NCBI GenBank assembly: GCA_024709365.1
Contig: JANJWV010000174.1
Span: 1 to 32,751, forward strand
Direction of reading: 5' to 3'
DNA: 32,751 bases
Source of the DNA: Desulfomicrobium sp.
Lineage (GTDB): Bacteria; Desulfobacterota; Desulfovibrionia; Desulfovibrionales; Desulfomicrobiaceae
Each line of letters opens with the position of its first letter. Positions within the stretch are counted from its first letter, which is position 1. The position numbers and the translations under genes are program-made. Below are positions 978-6,508 of the stretch, in pieces. The notes beneath the pieces are model-generated. The model was given only the letters and a program-made list of their open reading frames with translations, was not told the DNA's origin and made no database searches.

Positions 978-3425
978 ATGACGCCCCCTGCCACGCTTCC
1001 GCCGCTTCCCATAGACGCAGTCCTGCCCGACCTGGCGCAGGCCCTGCACACGGACACGGCCTGCGTGATCCACGCCCCGCCGGGCAGCGGCAAGACCACG
1101 CGCATCCCCCTGGCCCTCATGGACGCTCCCTGGGCCACCGGGCGCAAGATTCTCATGCTCGAACCCAGACGCCTGGCCGCGCGCGCCGCGGCCCGCCACA
1201 TGGCAGGCCTCTTGGGAGAGAAGGCCGGGGAGCGCGTCGGCTACCGCACGCGCCTGGACATACGTGTCTCGGCCTCAACCCGCGTCGAGGTCGTGACCGA
1301 GGGCATCCTGACCCGCATGCTGCAGCACGACCCCGAACTCACGGGCTACGCCTGCGTCATCTTCGACGAATTTCATGAAAGAAGCCTCCAGGCCGACCTG
1401 GGCCTGGCCCTGTGCCTGGAAGTGCGCGCCGCCCTGCGGCCCGACCTGCGCCTGGCCGTCATGTCCGCCACCCTCGACGTGGAGGCCGTGGCCGACCTCC
1501 TGGCCCCGTGCCGCATCCTGTCCTGCCCGGGGCAGGCCCACGCGGTGGAGACCCGCTACCTGCGCCTGCCCGAGCGTTTCGTCGAAGAGCGCATGGCCCG
1601 CGCCATCGCCCTGGCCCTGGCCACGGAAACGGGAAGCATCCTGGCCTTCCTGCCCGGAGCCCGCGAAATCCGCCGCACGGAGGAACTCCTCGGCGCGCCA
1701 TCCACCGGCGTGGAGATCCACCCGCTCCTGGGCGCCCTGACCGCGGCCGAGCAGGACCGGGCCATCTCCCCGCCCCAGGCAGGAACGCGCAAGGTTGTGC
1801 TGGCCACGGCCATCGCCGAAACCTCCCTGACCATCGAGGGCGTGCGCGTCGTCATCGACAGCGGCCTGGCCCGCCTGCCCCGCTTCGACCCCAGAAGCGG
1901 CATGACGGTCCTGGTCACGGAGCCCGCCTCCCTGGCCACCGTGGCCCAAAGGCAGGGCCGCGCCGGCCGCACGGAGCCGGGCGTGTGCCTGCGCCTCTGG
2001 GACCCGGCCGACGAGGTCAGCCGCAAACCCTTCCCCGCCCCGGAAATGCTGGAGGCCGACCTCACCCCCCTGGCCCTCGACTTGGCCCTGTGGGGCGCGG
2101 CCTCCCCCGCGGACCTCGCGTGGCTGACCCCGCCGCCGGCCGGAAATTTCCTGAGCGCCAGACGCCTCCTGCGTGAGCTCGGCGCCCTCGACGACGTGGG
2201 GCGCATCACGGCCCACGGCCGCGACATGGCCGCTCTGCCCCTGCACCCGCGCCTGGCCCACATGGTCCTCTCGGCCAAATGCATCGGCCACGGCCCCACC
2301 GCGGCCCACCTGGCCGCCATCCTGGGCGAACCGGGCCGCATCATGCGCTCCTCCCCGGACCTGCGCGAAGCCGTGAGGCCGCGGGGGCTGTCCGACACAC
2401 TGCGGGCCTCCATGGAGCAGATCGCCCGACTCGCCTCCATAAAACCTGGGCCCGTGGACCCCGAAGCCGCCGGTCTCCTGACCGCCCTGGCCTATCCGGA
2501 CCGCATCGCGCGCCGCCAGGAGGACGGGTCCTACAGGCTGACCAGCGGCCGAAAGGCCGTCTGGCCGGGACCGAGCACCCTGTCAGGCCTCGAATTCCTG
2601 GCCGTCGCGCAACTGGACGGCAGCGCCGACAACGCCCGGATCTGGCAGGCGGCCCCGCTCTCGTGGCAGGAAATGCACAAGCATTTCGGGGATCTGATGC
2701 GCTTCGAGGACGAGGTGCGCTTCGACCCGCTCCTCGACCGCGTGGTCAGCCGCCGCAAGCTGATGCTCGACGCGCTCTGCCTGCGGGATGAACCTCTGGC
2801 CGCCGACCGGGATGCCGTGACCCGGGCGCTCCTGGCCGGACTCAAAGACATTTCGCGCCTACCATGGGATGACCAGAGCCGCGCCCTGCGCGACCGAGTT
2901 CGCTTTCTGCGCAGCATCGACGACACGGCCTGGCCCGACCTGTCCGACGCCGCTCTCCAGTCCTCCCTGACCGACTGGCTGGGCCCATTCGCAACCGGCG
3001 CACGCTCCACGGCCGACCTCGCCAGGGTGCCGCTCCTGGAGGCCCTGAAAAACCTCATCGGGTGGGATAAACTCAAACTCCTGGACCGCCTGGCCCCGGA
3101 ACACCTTGACGTCCCCTCGGGCGCCCGGCGCCGCGTCGACTACTCCCCGGAATCCGGCCCCGTCCTGCCCGTCAAGCTCCAGGAAATGTTCGGCTGCGCC
3201 GACACCCCCACCCTGGCAGGCGGCCAATACCCCCTCGTCCTGCACCTGCTCTCCCCCGCCGGCCGCCCCCTGCAGGTCACCCGCGACCTGCCCTCCTTCT
3301 GGAAGAACGGCTACCCCCTCGTGCGCGCCGAAATGCGCGGCCGCTACCCCAAACACCCCTGGCCCGAAGACCCGGTCACAGCCATGCCCACGGCCAAGAC
3401 CAAGAAGGCCATGACGCCGAGATAA
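978..3425 (+). CDS. hrpB: ATP-dependent RNA helicase HrpB
   Basis: HrpB is a DEAH/RHA-type superfamily 2 helicase whose physiological RNA target is not established in most bacteria. The 815-residue length matches the family. Visible motifs are Walker A APPGSGKT (33-40), motif II DEFH (130-133), motif III SAT (163-165), and motif VI QRQGRAGR (about 323-330). The C-terminal third carries the HrpB-specific tail ending in KYPKHPWPEDP-like sequence (here RYPKHPWPEDP), typical of the family. The ATG at 978 is three bases after the pgpA stop with only a weak upstream purine stretch, so translation may depend on coupling. A 9-bp stem hairpin follows 15 bases after the stop. Confidence 0.93.
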   Translation: MTPPATLPPLPIDAVLPDLAQALHTDTACVIHAPPGSGKTTRIPLALMDAPWATGRKILMLEPRRLAARAAARHMAGLLGEKAGERVGYRTRLDIRVSASTRVEVVTEGILTRMLQHDPELTGYACVIFDEFHERSLQADLGLALCLEVRAALRPDLRLAVMSATLDVEAVADLLAPCRILSCPGQAHAVETRYLRLPERFVEERMARAIALALATETGSILAFLPGAREIRRTEELLGAPSTGVEIHPLLGALTAAEQDRAISPPQAGTRKVVLATAIAETSLTIEGVRVVIDSGLARLPRFDPRSGMTVLVTEPASLATVAQRQGRAGRTEPGVCLRLWDPADEVSRKPFPAPEMLEADLTPLALDLALWGAASPADLAWLTPPPAGNFLSARRLLRELGALDDVGRITAHGRDMAALPLHPRLAHMVLSAKCIGHGPTAAHLAAILGEPGRIMRSSPDLREAVRPRGLSDTLRASMEQIARLASIKPGPVDPEAAGLLTALAYPDRIARRQEDGSYRLTSGRKAVWPGPSTLSGLEFLAVAQLDGSADNARIWQAAPLSWQEMHKHFGDLMRFEDEVRFDPLLDRVVSRRKLMLDALCLRDEPLAADRDAVTRALLAGLKDISRLPWDDQSRALRDRVRFLRSIDDTAWPDLSDAALQSSLTDWLGPFATGARSTADLARVPLLEALKNLIGWDKLKLLDRLAPEHLDVPSGARRRVDYSPESGPVLPVKLQEMFGCADTPTLAGGQYPLVLHLLSPAGRPLQVTRDLPSFWKNGYPLVRAEMRGRYPKHPWPEDPVTAMPTAKTKKAMTPR

Positions 3426-3440
3426 GACTGCCTCCGGCGG

Positions 3441-3460
3441 GCAGGGGACTCGTCCCCTGC
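3441..3460 (+). terminator. Hairpin after hrpB, probable terminator
   Basis: A perfect 9-bp stem, GCAGGGGAC paired with GTCCCCTGC, with a 2-base turn lies 15 bases after the hrpB stop. It is followed by a pyrimidine-rich, moderately T-rich tract rather than a clean T run. It is probably an intrinsic or partly Rho-assisted terminator for maf-pgpA-hrpB. It directly abuts the first copy of the long palindromic repeat, so it could be part of that element. Confidence 0.55.
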
Positions 3461-3474
3461 ACCCCTTTCATCTC

Positions 3475-3690
3475 TTTCCTCACACCCGTCCACCCTGCCT
3501 CAAGCGATCCGTCGTGGGTCGGGCAAGGGCTGTCGGCTGTTTGACCGAGCCAGGCATCGTTTGCTTCCCGGCCGCGTGCCGGACAACGCGCCGCCCTCCG
3601 GCCCAAAGCTCAAGGCCGGGAAGCATTACGAGGCCCGCGAGGAAGTTCCGGCAGTCCTTGCCCGGCCCGCGACGGATCGCGTCCACCTGA
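3475..3690. repeat. Long palindromic intergenic repeat, copy 1
   Basis: About 216 bases recur at 4321-4538 in the same orientation, with roughly a dozen substitutions and one 2-base gap (about 94% identity by eye). The element is itself a long imperfect inverted repeat. Bases 3504-3536 pair with 3648-3680 (33 pairs with four non-Watson-Crick positions), and TGCTTCCCGGCC at 3562-3573 pairs perfectly with GGCCGGGAAGCA at 3614-3625. It can form a rod about 177 nt long, with a loop region at 3574-3613. No transposase is nearby. Short open frames run through it on both strands, but they track the palindrome and lack ribosome binding sites, so I do not call genes here. It may be a MITE-like element or a structured RNA. 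Confidence 0.85.
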
Positions 3691-3779
3691 AAAAACGTCC
3701 AGCTCACGAGTCCCGACCGCGGCGATTCCCGTGTCAAACCATGGACAACACCAGCCTTTCGTCACAATCTCTTCTCAGG

Positions 3780-4115
3780 CTATGCGTCAACCTCCACGAC
3801 TGCGGCTTCAGGAGCGTTAGCCATGACGGATTGAATCCCCTTATCCCTTGAGGCCACAGTTTCGTACTGCTGGCTGGTGCCGATGACCAGATGGTTTGCG
3901 GCAAGAAGACTGAACGCATACTTTCCCGATTTTGTTTCAATTTTCTTGAACCGCTCTTCCACGACCGCATTCTTCTTTACTGATTCAATCCCGTTTTTAC
4001 ATCCACCTTTGTCTTTATACCCCTCACTTCCGAGAATGATCTGCCCGTTCCCGGACTTGAGACGAAAACGAAATTCCCCGGCCCTGTCCATGTACATTTC
4101 AAATTTCCCAGCCAT
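3780..4115 (-). CDS. yegP: YegP-like DUF1508 tandem-repeat protein
   Basis: A 111-residue protein made of two DUF1508 (YegP) units, roughly residues 1-55 and 56-107. Each has the family pattern of an F..y.. strand, an FRFRLKSGNGQIIL/YAFSLLAANHLVIG strand, an SEGY/SQQY segment, and a closing helix with GIESVKKNA/GIQSVMANA. The family is small, cytoplasmic and of unsettled function, with stress-related hints in E. coli. AAGGAGG sits about 7 bases before the ATG. The gene is visibly AT-richer than its neighbours (many TTT, AAA and ATT codons) and lies between two direct repeat copies. Both points suggest acquisition by transfer. A candidate promoter lies at 4169-4198. Confidence 0.88.
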   Translation of the reverse strand: MAGKFEMYMDRAGEFRFRLKSGNGQIILGSEGYKDKGGCKNGIESVKKNAVVEERFKKIETKSGKYAFSLLAANHLVIGTSQQYETVASRDKGIQSVMANAPEAAVVEVDA

Positions 4116-4168
4116 TGTGCCCTCCTTATGAGTTCAGAATTGTGCAAATAAACTCGATTTACATAATG

Positions 4169-4198
4169 TTTATCGCACCATTTCAGCACATAAGGCAA
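4169..4198 (-). promoter_or_regulatory. Candidate sigma-70 promoter for yegP-like gene
   Basis: On the minus strand, TTGCCT (4193-4198) and GATAAA (4169-4174) are separated by 18 bases, in the AT-rich stretch 53 bases upstream of the yegP-like start. The match to consensus is moderate and there is no experimental support. Confidence 0.4.
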
Positions 4199-4200
4199 GA

Positions 4201-4227
4201 ATTGAACGAATTTTTATTCAGTTCAAT
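4201..4227. promoter_or_regulatory. AT-rich dyad just upstream of the yegP-like promoter
   Basis: ATTGAAC (4201-4207) is mirrored by GTTCAAT (4221-4227), and the inner GAAT pairs with ATTC around a TTTT loop. It lies immediately upstream of the proposed -35 box. It could be an operator for a dimeric regulator or the stem of a small terminator. It falls in the gap 4116-4603, which otherwise holds the second long repeat and the selB terminator. Confidence 0.4.
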
Positions 4228-4320
4228 AACACCGGCGGCAACAGAAACAATCCAGACGTCCCACAAGGACAACTTGAGTCGGTGACAACCCACTGGCGCT
4301 GCAACACATACACCTCTTTC

Positions 4321-4538
4321 TTTCCTCACACCCTTCCGCCCCGCCTCAAGCGTTCCGGCGCGGGCCGGGCAAGGGCTGTCGGCTGTCCGACCGAGCCAGG
4401 CATCGTTTGCTTCCCGGCCGCGTGCCGGACAACGCGCCGCCCCTGCCCAAAGCTCAAGGCCGGGAAGCATTACGAGGCCCGCGAGGAAGTTCCGGCAGAC
4501 CTTGCCCGGCCCGCGACGGATCACGCATCCCGCCCCTG
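4321..4538. repeat. Long palindromic intergenic repeat, copy 2
   Basis: Direct copy of 3475-3690, starting with the same TTTCCTCACACCC and ending near a shared CCTGAAA. It keeps the internal 12-bp perfect inverted repeat and the long outer arms. In the outer stem, two positions that are G-U type in copy 1 are Watson-Crick here, while two others are worse. The two copies bracket the yegP-like gene and its promoter. Copy 2 sits directly before the hairpin that ends the opposing selB transcript. Confidence 0.85.

Positions 4539-4603: not shown

Positions 4604-6508
<1,905 letters not shown>

Follow-up and report, generated by a model that had tools for sequence, protein, structure and literature searches.

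A family of large folded repeats with a patchy distribution in Desulfovibrionales, two copies of which flank yegP in a Desulfomicrobium genome

Dispersed palindromes in bacterial genomes are usually short, and their function is disputed. Among the described systems, REP/BIME elements are palindromes of 20–40 bp that carry a GTAG or CGTC tag (PMC3733652), while ERIC, Correia/NEMIS, RUP and the Rickettsia palindromic elements are MITE-type repeats with RNA structure (reviewed in PMC2229807). The locus analysed here lies in a 32,751-nucleotide contig of Desulfomicrobium sp. (GCA_024709365.1, JANJWV010000174.1; hereafter the window), which belongs to a genome (G000) of 3.65 Mb in 239 contigs. Its two repeat copies, R1 and R2, belong to an apparently undescribed family of large folded repeats that is patchily distributed in Desulfovibrionales; no description of the family was found in the literature.

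Two repeat copies in the window and the extent of their family

A preliminary description of the window had placed two near-identical copies of a palindrome of about 217 bp, in the same orientation, around a yegP-like gene. The two copies were confirmed by a repeat search of the window, which showed direct repeats in register at 3473–3596/4319–4442 (93%) and 3589–3681/4433–4525 (92%). Inverted arms were found in both copies, those of R1 being 88% complementary over 33 nt and those of R2 lying at 4354–4382/4492–4520. The copies are indeed palindromic, but the palindrome proper takes up only about 175–177 bp, and the rest of the ~217 bp is mainly a conserved 5′ flank with a few 3′-side bases (Table 1). 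The folding energy of R1 was −125 kcal/mol compared to −84.8 ± 4.5 kcal/mol for shuffled sequences (z = −8.85). The bracketed gene is yegP as proposed, its product matching Pfam DUF1508 with an E value of 1e-40, and it is AT-richer than its surroundings (GC 0.49 compared to 0.643 for the window, 0.71 for hrpB and 0.675 for selB). In agreement with the same description, no transposase was found adjoining the copies. The small palindrome to the left of R1 (GCCTCCGGCGGGCAGGGGACKCGTCCCCTGCACCCC) accompanies many copies of the repeat, is itself repeated between copies in L116 and L119, and was noted also at L121; it looks like an independent repeat family.

Table 1. Coordinates of features in the window, and target duplications at loci of related elements
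Feature	Position	Strand	Remarks
Repeat copy R1	3504..3680	+	outer stem 3504–3536/3648–3680 (33 bp), conserved core, inner hairpin
Repeat copy R2	4350..4524	+	architecture and orientation as R1
Conserved 5′ flank of R1	3473..3503	+	common to R2 and copies in relatives; direct repeat begins at 3473
Conserved 5′ flank of R2	4319..4349	+	second direct-repeat copy, from 4319
Separate small palindrome GCCTCCGGCGGGCAGGGGACTCGTCCCCTGCACCCC	3430..3465	.	belongs to the tandem unit in some relatives
yegP (DUF1508), low GC	3780..4115	−	bracketed here, unbracketed in G013 and G002
hrpB	978..3425	+	left neighbour of R1
selB	4604..6508	−	right neighbour of R2
Target duplication CTCCTTGCAA			L195
Target duplication AGTCAGAGGC			L208
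Target duplication TTCCAGGCAC			L148
Target duplication AGCCCCTCTC			L173
Target duplication GATAACCAA			L193

A BLAST search of G000 with R1 gave 46 matches, with near full-length copies at 78–94% identity and more diverged ones below; several contigs of this assembly end within a repeat copy. A pattern search with the core identified 26 places, and a covariance model built from 31 copies detected 28 copies in the genome, among them R1 (G000:C14:3519–3668, 140 bits) and R2 (G000:C14:4365–4512, 141 bits). Given these 28 model copies, and more than 25 further matches by BLAST alone, R1 and R2 are no two-copy accident. The genomic BLASTN search proposed in the preliminary description revealed a multi-copy family. 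The pattern named there as refuting mobility, two copies alone at fixed positions with yegP always in between, was not observed.

The distribution of the family was determined at several levels. A strict two-part pattern, searched in 84,980 species genomes, was found only in Desulfomicrobium-named records and in one unplaced ‘Proteobacteria’ MAG, which is the same-genus genome G012. With the covariance model, 18–54 copies were detected in eight other Desulfomicrobium genomes, 4 and 6 copies in a further two, whereas five genomes of the genus had none. Across the order, the model matched in 25 of 297 genomes, representing 7 of 55 genera and five families including that of Desulfomicrobium, in a patchy manner; the only match in one of these families (f5, L147) is near-equal to a Desulfomicrobium copy, lies at a contig end and may be contamination. 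In a 395-genome sample of the phylum the model matched no genome but G000. Plasmids, phages and IMG/VR contained no match to the repeat family, and no Rfam family came near threshold over the repeats in the window region and five further loci.

Fold architecture and evolution of copies in place

Read in order along the model strand, the repeat consists of the outer stem, the loop CTGTCY, the segment GAC-Y-GA-N-CC-A-GGC-A-TCGTT, an inner stem of 10–12 bp, a loop of ~30 nt, the segment TACGA-G-GCC-N-GN-GA-R-GGAGTT and again the outer stem. The outer stem is ~33 bp long (32–34 bp in 123 of the 191 intact copies) and its sequence is wholly different between subfamilies. Both stems vary in sequence yet stay complementary, around an almost invariant core with tandem G·A mismatches.

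Covariation was counted on a hand-written structure. The results showed that 96.5% of cells were paired, compared to 32–46% in controls with the structure slid along the alignment. The share of paired cells is inflated, since most of the copies retrieved had ranked high among the hits, where well-paired ones are favoured. Double-change cells numbered 292, compared to 87 ± 8 in shuffles, and 29 of 41 pairs change on both sides; the covariation score was 0.638, whereas shuffles scored 0.188 and slid structures no higher than 0.187. Of 200 copies, 196 and 191 (at least 95%) retain the tandem GA/GA mismatch, and the pair adjoining it switches between U-A (130) and C-G (56). Results also showed that in the outer stem G·T wobbles outnumber A·C by 404 to 52, or by 226 to 37 in the genus without duplicates and recurrent positions (a ratio of about 6–8:1), with 39 to 11 in the other genomes. 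This excess indicates that one strand is the preserved fold, and folding with DNA parameters gave the model strand a better structure than its complement in 165 of 191 copies. Taken together, the covariation supports a fold of one strand, as is asked of a structured RNA. By eye, no T run of the kind found in an intrinsic terminator was seen 3′ of the right arm in R1 or R2, nor generally in other copies.

Copies were regarded as orthologous if both flanks matched between genomes. Among 57 ortholog pairs, 110 double changes that keep the base pair were observed, together with 105 one-sided breaks. In the 38 ortholog pairs outside tandem arrays, divergence was 24–25% in the flanks, 19% in the apical loop and 11% in the outer stem. 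The inner stem diverged by 4.6%, and the left and right cores by 3% and 5%. As up to four errors in the ~20-nt left core were allowed when copies were detected, the 3% divergence there is not due to detection bias alone. According to these data, the repeat fold is maintained across species by paired mutations at identical sites.

Compensatory pairs can, however, also arise without selection, by template switching between the arms (PMC8794818). The family might accordingly comprise plain selfish MITE/REP-like repeats with no host function, whose stems are complementary through template-switch repair of quasi-palindromes. Such repair is a documented form of hairpin upkeep (PMC8794818). This reading is also favoured by the terminal repeats and target duplications described below, by the tandem arrays and the remnants of collapsed copies, and by the five genus genomes without copies. 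Nevertheless, template switching does not predict the kept mismatches, the wobble asymmetry or the slow core: repair of the arms would also remove the mismatches (GA/GA, A·G and internal loops), would yield equal numbers of G·T and A·C, and would not slow the core to 3–5% with flanks at 25%. We therefore consider it unlikely that the family is purely selfish and has no host function.

Mobility and the hrpB–selB gap

The suggested assignment of the copies to a MITE-like family spreading near genes is supported by their multi-copy, intergenic occurrence and by the presence of the same core within TIR-bounded elements in another family of the order. MITE-like elements of ~250 bp with ends CAGGGCAATTTTGTTCTCAC contain this core in genus g7 (family f4) and in G031 (g5), and target duplications of 8–10 bp flank such elements at L148, L173, L193, L195, L208 and other loci (Table 1). 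A second element set has ends GTAACTACTCAG...CTGAGTAGTTAC. The Desulfomicrobium copies, including those of the window, have no such terminal repeats, and no target duplication was seen around them. They amplify as tandem units, with a period of ~272 bp in L116 and ~270–300 bp in most other arrays, and copies are lost by hairpin collapse, arm remnants remaining in G004 and G011. Other elements of ~190 bp in g7 (L190, L204 and L191), with ends CAGGGCAATTTTGTTCTC, carry CGATTC-type tandem repeats in place of the folded core, and in G037:C17 (L185 2156, 2369) one copy adjoins a more diverged core copy (CTGTCTGACCGAGCTTGC...), a possible nested insertion.

Two candidate sources of mobility were rejected. 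An IS4-type DDE_Tnp_1 was considered as the source of the TIRs, and none of the DDE_Tnp_1 genes of five genomes has ends matching the repeat elements. A RAYT was considered as the mobiliser; Y1_Tnp is absent from G000 and present in 9 of 16 genus genomes, and inspection of eight Y1 loci showed no neighbouring model hits except two weak ones at a single locus, which represent an unrelated REP-like repeat. In G012 a pair of copies is located ~0.6 kb away from one Y1 gene, a nearness that may be due to chance. At L222 600–1450 (G011:C63), a Y1 transposase gene lies between two copies of an unrelated REP-like repeat, possibly as foreign sequence in this MAG.

The gap between hrpB and selB was compared across sister genomes. 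The gene order is hrpB–R–yegP–R–selB in the window, hrpB–R–T6SS cargo–R–selB in G003 and R–T6SS cargo–R–yegP–R–selB in G007. In G013 (three copies) and G002 (two copies), yegP adjoins selB unbracketed and all copies are on its other side; G001 contains two adjacent copies with no cargo between them and no yegP, and G004 contains one copy and a remnant, again without yegP. The cargo between the two copies in G003 (L115 1035–5074; also L114 in G007) is a block of ~4.3 kb that, judged from its translations, reads like a T6SS-linked module encoding a DUF4123-like protein, a lipoprotein and a lipase-like protein. In G012 (L118 ~550–1300), a toxin–antitoxin-like pair, recognised by eye, lies upstream of a repeat copy in the same gap, which seems to be a hot spot for insertions. 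No empty site for a Desulfomicrobium copy was obtained, the gene order beyond selB being different in the copy-free genomes.

Flank comparison showed that the left flank of R1 corresponds to the hrpB-side flank of the first G003 copy (0.86) and its right flank to the yegP-side flank of the second G007 copy (0.91), and that the second G003 copy has the left flank of the second G007 copy (0.89) together with the selB-side right flank. These matches fit the junctions expected of recombination between direct copies. The variability of the gap would be due to the homology that direct copies provide for deleting or exchanging the intervening yegP and T6SS cargo, and the comparison as a whole fits a gain or loss of yegP and other genes between repeat copies.

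The preliminary description had also proposed insertion of a cassette between repeats. This idea holds in so far as copies delimit modules that come and go in the window and its nearest sisters, G007 and G003; it does not hold for yegP, which is unbracketed in G013 and G002 and was therefore not brought in by R1 and R2 as a unit. A composite cassette, with R1 and R2 as the two ends of a single mobile unit by which yegP entered the gap, would explain why direct copies bracket the low-GC yegP in the window and in G007 and the T6SS cargo in G003 and G007. However, yegP stands unbracketed within the same gap in two genomes, neither a transposase nor a target duplication was found around the R1/R2 pair, and the two adjacent copies of G001 enclose no cargo, so that such a unit is highly improbable.

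Orientation of the copies, their interpretation and comparison with known systems

Among 139 placed copies of the genus, 3 overlap a called gene, as determined with a crude gene caller. The copies lie in convergent (64), tandem sense (51), tandem antisense (16) and divergent (8) gaps, whereas in sampled stretches of G002 and G013 about one fifth of background gaps are convergent and about one quarter divergent. The tandem sense to antisense ratio was 10:1 in G012 and 8:2 in both G002 and G013, and was 16:8, which is not significant, after clustering; the sense bias is only suggestive because the single-linkage clustering overmerged flanks, which hold other repeats. One repeat copy is followed, ~130 nt downstream and in like orientation, by a TPP riboswitch (L137 1783–1885).

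Orientation was also compared with the direction of replication as given by GC skew. The result showed that the model strand coincides with the lagging strand at 31 of the 37 merged loci of G002 (P = 5e-5) and at 30 of the 41 of G013 (P = 0.0015), two counts that are not independent since many loci are common to both genomes. Within convergent gaps the bias was 9:0 in G002 and 8:4 in G013. Called genes in the sampled stretches showed no comparably strong bias (leading:lagging 113:129 in G002 and 90:108 in G013). In both chromosomes the orientation of the repeats switches near the GC-skew switch points.

One explanation is that the folded strand plays its part at the replication fork, in the form of single-stranded DNA, as an IS200/IS605-, REP- or attC-like hairpin acted on by a recombinase or nuclease, and has no RNA role. 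The lagging-strand placement in both genomes is consistent with this, as are its persistence in convergent gaps, where transcription cannot distinguish the two orientations, and the fact that the poorer-folding strand is the would-be single-stranded lagging template. However, G000 contains no Y1 transposase and the eight Y1 loci elsewhere had no hits to the family, insertion preference alone leaves the slow in-place evolution of old copies unexplained, and the strand bias may stem from palindrome survival rather than function. An exclusive role as DNA hairpin is thus rather unlikely.

We lean towards interpreting R1 and R2 as copies of a non-autonomous, MITE-derived repeat of Desulfovibrionales with one conserved folded strand and a host-selected, RNA-like structure. 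The family would be mobile in origin, with the conserved structure in present use, and we infer its molecular function as follows. The preserved strand may act as RNA in 3′-untranslated or convergent intergenic transcripts, where it would work as a stable 3′ block or processing structure with a core recognised by a putative protein; a benefit to the host would lead to retention of copies that had probably spread by a transposase not found here and then by tandem duplication. Use as RNA is suggested by the tandem G·A core, the wobble asymmetry and the 3′-end location. R2, however, is antisense to yegP and selB and so does not fit a simple sense 3′-UTR rule. Orientation follows the replication strand and therefore points to DNA as much as to RNA, and the bias leaves a DNA role open. 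It may be speculated that G·T is favoured since the RNA would stay paired, with A·C mismatches left on the strand exposed as lagging template. A further possibility, which we put forward tentatively and with some doubt, is that the repeats are an undescribed structured-RNA class, a rod with a ~33-bp stem, a tandem-G·A core and an inner hairpin. Such an RNA, with tens of copies in each genome that has it, would be carried by transposon-like elements and would have been adopted by the host as a selected 3′-end structure with an orientation fixed with respect to the replication fork.

With the large invariant core, the in-place compensation, the wobble signature and the replication-strand bias, it becomes directly testable in culturable sulfate reducers whether such palindromes are selfish DNA, RNA elements or replication structures, and the hrpB–selB gap is a clear example of repeats delimiting modules gained or lost. 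As with REP/BIME, the palindromes occur in many copies, for the most part downstream of genes in tandem or convergent gaps, and they are plausibly transcribed, often clustered, and associated with cargo and insertion hot spots. Unlike REP/BIME, the repeat is ~175 bp long, its invariant core is interior, and its stem is fixed at ~33 bp in length and varies freely in sequence; its stem base, which reads CAAG/CGAG at the left and in many cases GGCCGC at the right, has no GTAG or CGTC tag, and no RAYT (Y1) transposase is linked to it in G000. As with ERIC, Correia/NEMIS, RUP and the Rickettsia palindromic elements, the copies are non-autonomous, ~100–250 bp long, intergenic and foldable if transcribed, and the f4 copies share with MITE-type repeats their terminal repeats and target duplications. 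They differ from these repeats in that Desulfomicrobium copies have no such ends, a conserved interior tandem-G·A core is common to elements with different ends, and slow evolution and compensation in place were measured. The repeats resemble integron attC sites in keeping their structure while the stem sequence varies, in having one active strand fold and in being able to delimit cassette-like cargo; by comparison of architecture only, the conserved part of the repeat is interior and not at the base as in attC, and the module losses seen here fit homologous recombination between near-identical copies.
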